64,000 bases of DNA from Frateuria hangzhouensis (GTDB taxonomy: Bacteria > Pseudomonadota > Gammaproteobacteria > Xanthomonadales > Rhodanobacteraceae): the NCBI RefSeq assembly GCF_026410505.1, contig NZ_JAPMIU010000003.1, positions 248,001-312,000 on the forward strand, in the 5' to 3' direction. This document shows, one piece after another, positions 36,455-63,720 of this stretch. The notes under the pieces are model-generated. The model did not search any database. It saw nothing but the letters and a program-made list of their open reading frames with translations, and had not been told where the DNA came from. The translations under genes were made by a program, and so were the position numbers. Each line of letters starts with the position of its first letter. The stretch's first letter is position 1.

Positions 36455-36593
36455 GTGAAACTGTCGATGGCAATGATGGTGTTCATGTGGATTGCGAGTC
36501 GCTTCGAGCCGGGCGCGAGGCCAGCCTTGGCCCTTCACCCCAGCCCTCTCCCCGGAGGGGAGAGGGGGCAGATCCGGCCTGCGTGGGCGTTCA

Positions 36594-61735: not shown

Positions 61736-62413
61736 ATGTCCCTGTTCCGCCTTTCCACCGCCGCGCTGGCACTGGCGCTGCTCGCCGGCTGCATGGCCAT
61801 GCCGGCGCGCGACGACGCCGAGTGGGCGCCTACGCCGCCGATGCAGCCGGCCATCGCCGCCGCGCCCGCCGATGGCTCGATCTACCACGACAACCAGAAC
61901 ATGGAGCTGTTCGTCGATGCGCGTGCGCACCGCGTGGGCGACATCCTCACCGTGCTGCTGGTGGAGAGCACCCAGGCGAGCAAGAAGGCCAGCACCAGCA
62001 CCAGCAAGAAAGACAACGCCGACATCGGCGCGCCGACCGTCATGGGCCACGGCCTGTCGGTCAACGGCAACCCGCTCAGCGTCGGCATAAACAGCGAGCG
62101 CAGCTTCGACGGCAATGGCGCGTCCAGCCAGTCCAACCAGCTCACCGGCCAGATCACCGTCACCGTTGCCCAGCGCCTGTCCAACGGCAACCTGATCGTG
62201 CGTGGCGAAAAGTGGCTGACCATCAACCAGGGCCAGGAACTGGTGCGCATCGCCGGCATCGTGCGTCCGCAGGACATCAGCCCCGACAACACCGTGCCGT
62301 CGACCCGCGTGGCCGACGCGCGCATCAGCTACACCGGCCGCGGCACGCTGGCCGATGCGAACACGCGCGGGTGGTTGTCGCGGTTCTTCAATTCCAAGTG
62401 GATGCCGTTCTGA
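61736..62413 (+). CDS. flgH: Flagellar L-ring lipoprotein FlgH
   Basis: 225 residues. Signal peptide with lipobox LLAGC, Cys19 being the lipid site. [38 protein letters not shown] and [20 protein letters not shown] are FlgH signatures. Assembles the outer-membrane bushing. Its stop codon overlaps an in-frame ATG (62413) that opens the extended flgI reading frame. Confidence 0.96.
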
Positions 62414-62439
62414 TGAACGCGAATCACAACCTCGCGCGA

Positions 62440-62620
62440 TCCGCTCCCTCTCCCCCTTTCCCGATCAAGGATGGGGGAGAGGGTTGGGGTGAGGGGTCGA
62501 TTGTCGCGAGCGGCGCCCGTCTGGCGCGCTCTGCTTTTGGCTCTTTCACGCACCGCCTGTCCAACCTTTTCCACAAGAGTGGCCCCTCACCCCAGCCCTC
62601 GCCCCGGAGGGGAGAGGGAG
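62440..62620. repeat. Pair of extragenic repeats inserted at the flgH/flgI junction
   Basis: A CCCTCTCCC-type unit (CTCCCTCTCCCCCTTTCCCG at 62446, then GGGGGAGAGGGTTGGGGTGA at 62473-62492) faces CCCCTCACCCCAGCCCTCGC (62583-62602) with GGAGGGGAGAGGGAG (62606-62620). The open reading frame continues through both units, adding about 70 residues ahead of the FlgI signal peptide. The right unit ends with GGAGG and GGAG 8 nt before a GTG. Confidence 0.8.
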
Positions 62621-62622
62621 CT

Positions 62623-63720
62623 GTGCCGAGGCTTGTTCTGGGGCTCATGCTCTGCCTGTTCATCGATCCGGTGCACGCCGACAAGATTCGCGACCTCGCC
62701 TCCGTCGGCGGCGTGCGCTCCAATCAGCTGATCGGCTACGGCCTGGTGGTCGGCCTCGACGGCTCCGGCGACCAGACCACCCAGGCCCCGTTCACCACCC
62801 AGAGCCTGGAGAACATGCTCCAGCAGTTCGGCATCACCGTGCCGCCGAACGCGCGCCCGCAGCTGAAGAACGCCGCGGCGGTGACCATCACCGCCGACTT
62901 GCCGCCGTTCGCCAAGCCCGGGCAGACCATCGACGTCACCGTCGCCTCGATCGGCAACGCCAAGAGCCTGCGCGGCGGCCAGCTGCTGATGTCGCCGTTG
63001 CGCGGCGCCGACGGCAACGTCTATGCGATCGCCCAGGGCAGCGTGGTGGTCGGCGGCGTCAGCGCCCAAGGCAAGAGCGGCTCCAGCGTGCAGGTCAACA
63101 TCTCCGCCAGCGGACGCATCCCCAACGGCGCCTCGGTCGAACGCAGCGTGCCGTCTTCGTTCGGCAGCAGCGGCGAGCTGATGCTCAACCTCAACACCCC
63201 CGACTTCACCACCGCCGCGCGCATCGCGCAGGCCATCAACGCCGCCTACGGCCAGGGCACAGCGCAGCCGGTCGACGGTGGCACGGTGTCCGTGCGCGGC
63301 CCGCAGGACCCGGGCCAGAAGGTCGCCTGGCTGGGCATGATCCAGAACCTGGACGTGACCCCGGGCGAGGCGCCGGCCCGCGTGGTGATCAACTCGCGCA
63401 CCGGCACCGTGGTGATCGGTTCGGACGTGCGCGTGACCGCCGCCGCCGTGGCGCACGGCGCCATCCAGGTGACCATCAGCGAACAGCCGCAGGTCAGCCA
63501 GCCGGCGCCGTTCTCGCGCGGGCAGACCGCGGTGGTGCCCAGCTCCGACGTGCAGGTCAGCGAGGAGGGCGCGCACATGTTCAAGTTCGGCCCCGGCGTG
63601 AGCCTGGACACCATCGTGCGCGCGGTGAACCAGGTCGGCGCCGCGCCGAGCGACTTGATCTCGATCCTGCAGGCGCTCAAGCAGGCTGGCGCGCTTCATG
63701 CAGAGCTCGTCGTGATCTGA
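62623..63720 (+). CDS. flgI: Flagellar P-ring protein FlgI
   Basis: 365 residues from the GTG at 62623, the usual FlgI length, giving a Sec signal peptide ([18 protein letters not shown]) before mature [24 protein letters not shown] lies 8 nt upstream, supplied by an extragenic repeat. The frame is open back to an ATG at 62413 (435 residues), but that would put repeat-encoded residues in front of the signal peptide. Other signatures: [40 protein letters not shown] and the C-terminal [14 protein letters not shown]. It forms the periplasmic ring with FlgA's help. Confidence 0.95.

Follow-up and report, generated by a model that had tools for sequence, protein, structure and literature searches.

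Dispersed palindromic repeats lie in frame between flgH and flgI in Frateuria and its relatives, and are probably translated ahead of the FlgI signal peptide

Rhodanobacteraceae are a family of soil bacteria. In the window analyzed here, a stretch of 64,000 nt from Frateuria hangzhouensis, the flagellar gene flgI follows directly upon an open reading frame (61736-62413) which we take, from its motif and the gene order, to be flgH. The following features are found at this junction.

61736..62413, + strand: flgH (L-ring lipoprotein), the upstream partner; 225-aa ORF, C-terminus NSKWMPF common to relatives
62411..62415, + strand: TGATG, in which the stop of flgH shares a base with ATG 62413, the proposed start of flgI; same overlap in 104 of 128 family junctions
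62413..62622, + strand: pre-signal leader of 70 codons bearing the repeats, open in the FlgI frame; frame kept in relatives
62443..62496, strand not assigned: palindromic repeat unit 1, family A, from its inverted arms, genome copies and core motif
62583..62621, strand not assigned: palindromic repeat unit 2, family A, in the opposite orientation to unit 1; translated, it would be part of the charged n-region
62610..62625, + strand: Shine-Dalgarno (62610-62614) and GTG (62623-62625) put forward by an earlier, sequence-only reading; judged not to be the main start, and paired in the predicted stem
62632..62679, + strand: putative FlgI signal peptide, hydrophobic core and cleavage region, placed by hydropathy
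62680..63720, + strand: mature FlgI (P-ring protein) from DKIRDL, with its stop, Pfam PF02119; predicted cleavage site

The flgH stop TGA (62411-62413) shares one base with the ATG at 62413-62415, and the frame that begins there is open for 435 codons down to the FlgI stop. PF02119 is matched on this 435-codon frame with an E value of 4.6e-146 by residues 91-434, over the full model (1-343 of 343), and the intact FlgI domain indicates that flgI is presumably functional. The sequence-only reading had placed two facing repeat units between the flgH stop and the signal peptide, with the reading frame open through them, and we confirm both points. The units are inverted, with three pairs of arms: 62474-62496/62583-62605 (23 nt, 91% complementary), 62443-62455/62609-62621 (13 nt, 100%) and 62446-62456/62473-62483 (11 nt, 100%). 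The geometry of the GTG start that it favored was also given correctly: GGGAG (62610-62614) lies 8 nt upstream of GTG 62623, and the product would have 365 residues.

In its own genome the stretch 62400-62660 is matched 95 times, itself included, and the family A core motif, when 3 mismatches at most are allowed, is matched 4 times in the window where 0.14 matches are expected. These counts rule out an artefact or a chance palindrome at 62443-62621. A further copy of the core, with 1 mismatch, lies at 36531-36548 of the window. Around the repeats of this genome (36 stretches), open frames overlap many of the copies. Other genes of the genome with a repeat placed as at flgI were sought by scanning 9 such long open frames against Pfam, and no match was returned.

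Three other families of repeats were found in the relatives. Family B (GTAGGAGCCC...), the unit of which starts with GTAG, has 16-207 copies in each of six relatives' genomes; for family C, seven genomes show 18-64 strand hits, many sites being matched on both strands; and family D (CATTCCGGCGAAAGCCGG...) has 25 copies in the genome matching Frateuria sp. Soil773, three of them within the flgI leader. Backward control patterns for families B, C and D gave 0 matches in the same genomes. Copies of families B and C also fall within the flgI leaders of genomes G003, G158, G148, G149 and G150. In G003, GTAGGAGCCC repeats form regular tandem arrays at C1:15208-16051 and 528983-529156, recurring every 153 bp or so and every 50 bp.

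Families A, B, C and D are all short palindromes with a high genome-wide copy number, as REPs are. REPs mobilized by a RAYT (REPINs) flank a REP-associated tyrosine transposase gene, an arrangement that we did not find for families A and B in the window's own genome. Y1_Tnp has 6 matches there, and the motifs of families A and B are absent from all 6 loci (∼3.2-3.3 kb each); a link between family A and these Y1 transposases was therefore dropped. Y1 (REP-type) transposase genes are clustered in this genome at G000:C5:6300-9180 and C3:360832-363412 (loci L131-L134 and L136). The earlier description of a "mobile palindrome" taken up by flgI thus stands as regards uptake and dispersal but not as regards mobility, no mover having been found at the Y1 loci.

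We then turn to the family as a whole, sampled as 233 genomes of which 140 have a FlgI match. There were 137 flgI places with E < 1e-100 among those listed, and 130 were used; of the seven left out, five lie at the end of a contig or close to it (G089, G196, G113, G184, G178:C16) and two are divergent (G177, G085). The flgH end is unreadable in L019 and L039, which leaves 128 readable junctions. A second FlgI, with 42-44% identity, occurs in G050, G058, G060, G069, G074, G078, G086, G127, G174 and G184 and perhaps belongs to a second flagellar system. This type is the only FlgI match in G171 and G232.

The one-base overlap between the flgH stop and the first in-frame start recurs in the 104 junctions mentioned above, and 116 of the 128 have a start at most 6 nt from the flgH stop from which FlgI is reached in frame with no intervening stop. 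Repeats, assigned to classes by the short motifs of the four families, are present in 39 of the 128. These junctions span 158-539 nt between flgH and the first codon of mature FlgI, and 33 of the 39 have an open junction start. Among those 33, frame +1 is stopped in 32 and frame +2 in 20, and leader and signal peptide together amount to 51-178 residues. The palindromes are therefore in frame in an apparently functional gene with the frame kept, as in protein-coding palindromes of the RPE type. The sequence-only reading had proposed a comparison of this junction in relatives as a check, and the outcome is a frame that stays open through many different dispersed-repeat inserts across the family.

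Twelve of the 128 junctions do not fit: L008, which holds Ns, and L025, L094, L097, L106, L107, L113, L117, L122, L123, L126 and L130, which start later or have lost the ATG. Six of these carry repeats (L025, L094, L107, L113, L122, L123). L025 has an in-frame stop, so that a late ATG (MRSR...) must serve; late ATGs are also present in two other members of its group (g10), L042 and L066. The earliest available start in L107 and L113 precedes the second unit, which would still be translated. The apparent start of flgI is thus later in some lineages.

Sequence comparison also shows the inserts to be recurrent. On a flgH tree of 127 rows with motif labels, in which L020 and L106 were entered as lacking repeats, repeat presence needs at least 22 changes, be they gains or losses, with well supported branches forcing 19; repeat classes need 31 changes. 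Among the fitting junctions, different repeats or none are found in species with flgH ends 97-98% alike (L017/L024, L011/L015, L013/L015).

Among neighboring segments, the repeats are specific to this site. When segments of an equal 250 nt are compared, the motifs occur at the flgH-flgI junction in 38 of 128 cases, before the FlgH cysteine in 1 of 117 (the sole match is L061; the stretch is unreadable in 11), inside flgH in none of 127, and after flgI in none of 80 distinct genes, repeated flgI sequences being counted once. From the other families of the order, 23 genomes matched, 20 were taken and 18 junctions could be parsed, and these 18 have neither the TGATG overlap nor any of these motifs. 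Their pre-sequences are mostly short. Long FlgI pre-sequences are not confined to Rhodanobacteraceae, since four in these other families (L276, L277, L279, L286) reach 45-60 residues. L277 and L279 carry a doubled peptide in the FlgI pre-sequence (PRKSPH.../PRKNPHIHVRGFN), perhaps a case of leader growth by duplication.

Is the open frame more than what composition would give? GC-rich repeats are often open by composition (a null made of 36 family B pairs from other places has 114 open frames out of 216), and single loci are for this reason weak evidence. The 41 repeat-bearing leaders fall into 25 likeness clusters, with an arbitrary cut-off and with possible shared ancestry between clusters of the same family; in 21 of them the FlgI frame is open and has a junction start, against 8.5 expected from open frames in dinucleotide shuffles (P = 2.6e-8). 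Adding a factor of 1/3 for the frame, which is an assumed value, brings P to 4.9e-18. L033 probably does not belong here, since its leader resembles the non-repeat leader of L037, and without it 20 of 24 clusters are open against 7.8 expected (P = 4e-8). Two leaders were added by eye: L020, which the motifs missed, to the cluster and charge counts, and L106 to the cluster count.

Alignment gaps between near pairs are a multiple of three in length in 14 of 20 cases. The six that are not belong to L001/L003 (1, 16), L010/L020 (1, 2) and L026/L028 (56, 10). Within the Frateuria trio the gaps are 3, 3 and 12 for L001/L002, 3 for L002/L003, and 3, 1, 3 and 16 for L001/L003. The pairs were drawn from fitting junctions only, which is why their net lengths are in frame. 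At the first, second and third codon positions the repeat leaders of L001/L002 show 14, 16 and 22 changes, a weak bias, and nine leaders compared across genera show 512, 500 and 566, where the bias is nearly absent. Selection on the amino acids of the leader was thus set aside, its trace being weak within Frateuria and almost nil across genera. What is kept appears to be the frame and not the peptide.

These comparisons bear on where flgI is started. The sequence-only reading preferred GTG 62623, on a ribosome site supplied by unit 2 and with the upstream frame open by chance. Besides the well placed GGGAG, such a start would leave a signal peptide of 19 residues; a late start with an SD-like stretch behind the repeats is seen in 11 of the 33 repeat leaders, window included, and the in-frame stop of L025 forces a late start in that lineage. 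The excess of open frames over shuffles nevertheless speaks against it, and so does the predicted RNA structure. The stretch 62400-62660 is predicted to fold at -135.7 kcal/mol with the two units pairing with each other, and in the fold of 62300-62760 bases 62609-62621, which include the putative SD, have an unpaired probability of at most 0.01, which argues against the repeat supplying the flgI ribosome site. ATG 62413 is partly paired too (unpaired 0.75, 0.75 and 0.00). This pair of units is also present in the sister species F. flava (L002) and F. terrea (L003), both of which have GGT as the codon aligned to GTG 62623. No ATG, GTG or TTG was found 16-40 residues before the cleavage site in F. 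flava, while F. terrea has a TTG there. More broadly, 12 of the 33 repeat leaders have no start codon in this interval, and L009 has no ATG, GTG or TTG anywhere from after its first codon to 16 residues before the cleavage site. With its SD buried in a predicted repeat-repeat hairpin and no start at the same place in the sister species, GTG 62623 loses its support as the best start, and we regard it as quite improbable. The other option of that reading, ATG 62413 with a repeat-encoded leader of 70 residues, is the one better supported by the relatives, in which the upstream frame is kept open family-wide.

Both starts might also be used, the coupled ATG giving a long form and GTG 62623 a short one, in a ratio set by the hairpin. 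Both are present in the window, and the mature protein would be the same after cleavage either way. Sister species with the same insert lack the GTG, however, and its SD is paired in the fold, although passing ribosomes could open it; we find this dual use unlikely. A further possibility is that the repeats act mainly as an RNA hairpin, tuning the FlgH:FlgI ratio or protecting the mRNA, with translation as a by-product. The two units do fold into one long predicted stem, and post-transcriptional roles have been proposed for REPs at gene starts (PMC3733652). Yet near relatives do without these repeats (L005, L013, Luteibacter) or have other families, and the preservation of the frame would be left unexplained. 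A main role in RNA hence seems to us rather implausible, and translation from ATG 62413 remains the preferred reading.

In many of the repeat leaders the repeat ends near the hydrophobic core, and its codons would make up the charged n-region. The 14 residues before the core are net positive, by +1 or more, in 33 of 34 repeat leaders, against 82 of 82 leaders without motifs, and an A-x-A site is found at the end in 30 of 34 against 60 of 82. Long leaders without repeats also exist, as in the Dyella group (L031/L032/L034/L040). Over the 82-codon stretch of this group, L031 and L034 differ 15, 16 and 38 times at the first, second and third codon positions, which suggests that a long FlgI leader is really translated in Rhodanobacteraceae.

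A long non-repeat leader is found in several genera (L005, L027, L029, L031, L032, L035, L038, L040, L045, L072), and, by eye, a motif like RRxAxRxAxxRWxxFG before the core is common to such leaders. It may be the ancestral leader, later replaced by repeats. Separately, (A/T)NPHGTFAPSP or a similar stretch stands just before unit 1 in L006, L007, L021, L026, L028, L036, L043 and L078, from several genera, as if one old insertion had been shared or exchanged.

We consider it very probable that translation of the window's flgI begins at ATG 62413, is coupled to the flgH stop and runs through both repeats, that the leader is cleaved with the signal, and that the site is a recurrent landing pad. 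The ribosome that finishes flgH would restart at the overlapping ATG (TGATG) by termination-reinitiation and read both units, giving a precursor 70 residues longer than the short form starting at GTG 62623. Unit 2, which adjoins the hydrophobic core, would provide part of the positive n-region (SPRRGEGA). Signal peptidase would then take off leader and signal together, so that mature FlgI is unchanged; export and cleavage with so long an n-region are here conjectured from the sequence. Because initiation would be anchored at the flgH stop, inserts would pass through a frame filter: only those in frame and stop-free would survive, and their amino acids would hardly matter. The stretch from start to core would be a permissive landing pad, used again and again by different dispersed repeats in Rhodanobacteraceae. 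With less assurance, we lean toward a family-wide generalization in which at least four families of non-coding repeats repeatedly become coding at this site, as the n-region of the FlgI signal peptide, with a stop-coupled start filtering the frame.

Replicate insertions at one site throughout a family make the rule that only in-frame, stop-free inserts survive countable and testable. Where a pre-signal region is cleaved off and the start is coupled to a stop, repeats could turn into protein with little effect on the mature product. If true, new coding sequence would have arisen naturally, time after time, at a single address, and FlgI starts may be wrongly annotated. We found no earlier report of repeat insertion at the flgI start in the open-licence literature.

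Several known systems resemble this one in part. Long signal sequences have reportedly been described for autotransporters and two-partner secretion proteins (PMC2805444), and there too an extra stretch precedes the signal peptide. It is a trait of those proteins, whereas at flgI it consists of variable repeat sequence on a P-ring protein.

Intragenic GTAG/CGTC REPs are short palindromes, often in facing pairs, some of which lie inside reading frames (PMC3733652). The facing short palindromes seen here are alike, and the family B unit begins with GTAG. That source holds that REPs located at the NH2-terminus of genes may for the most part be extragenic, owing to misannotation; at flgI, by contrast, the comparison argues for translated repeats. 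The main text of PMC3733652 does not contain 'Frateuria', 'Rhodanobacter', 'Dyella', 'flagell' or 'signal peptide'. The enterobacterial repeat units RU-1, RU-2 and RU-3 have been found fused to genes, including a predicted signal peptide, but, in the sections of PMC2759123 consulted, at individual gene loci and with no recurrent site across a family.

Finally, Rickettsia and Wolbachia have palindromes that lie in frame within genes (PMC10969869; PMC3767692). The RPEs and Wolbachia palindromic elements described there are likewise dispersed palindromes, in frame, that leave genes unbroken, and one site may carry different groups. RPEs occur in many unrelated genes and are kept in the protein at exposed places. 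Compared by description, the flgI case instead concerns a single site in a single gene that different families have hit again and again, and the part affected should be cleaved away. The case thus differs from the known in-frame palindromes in its fixed site, in the several families that share it, and in its position before a cleaved signal.
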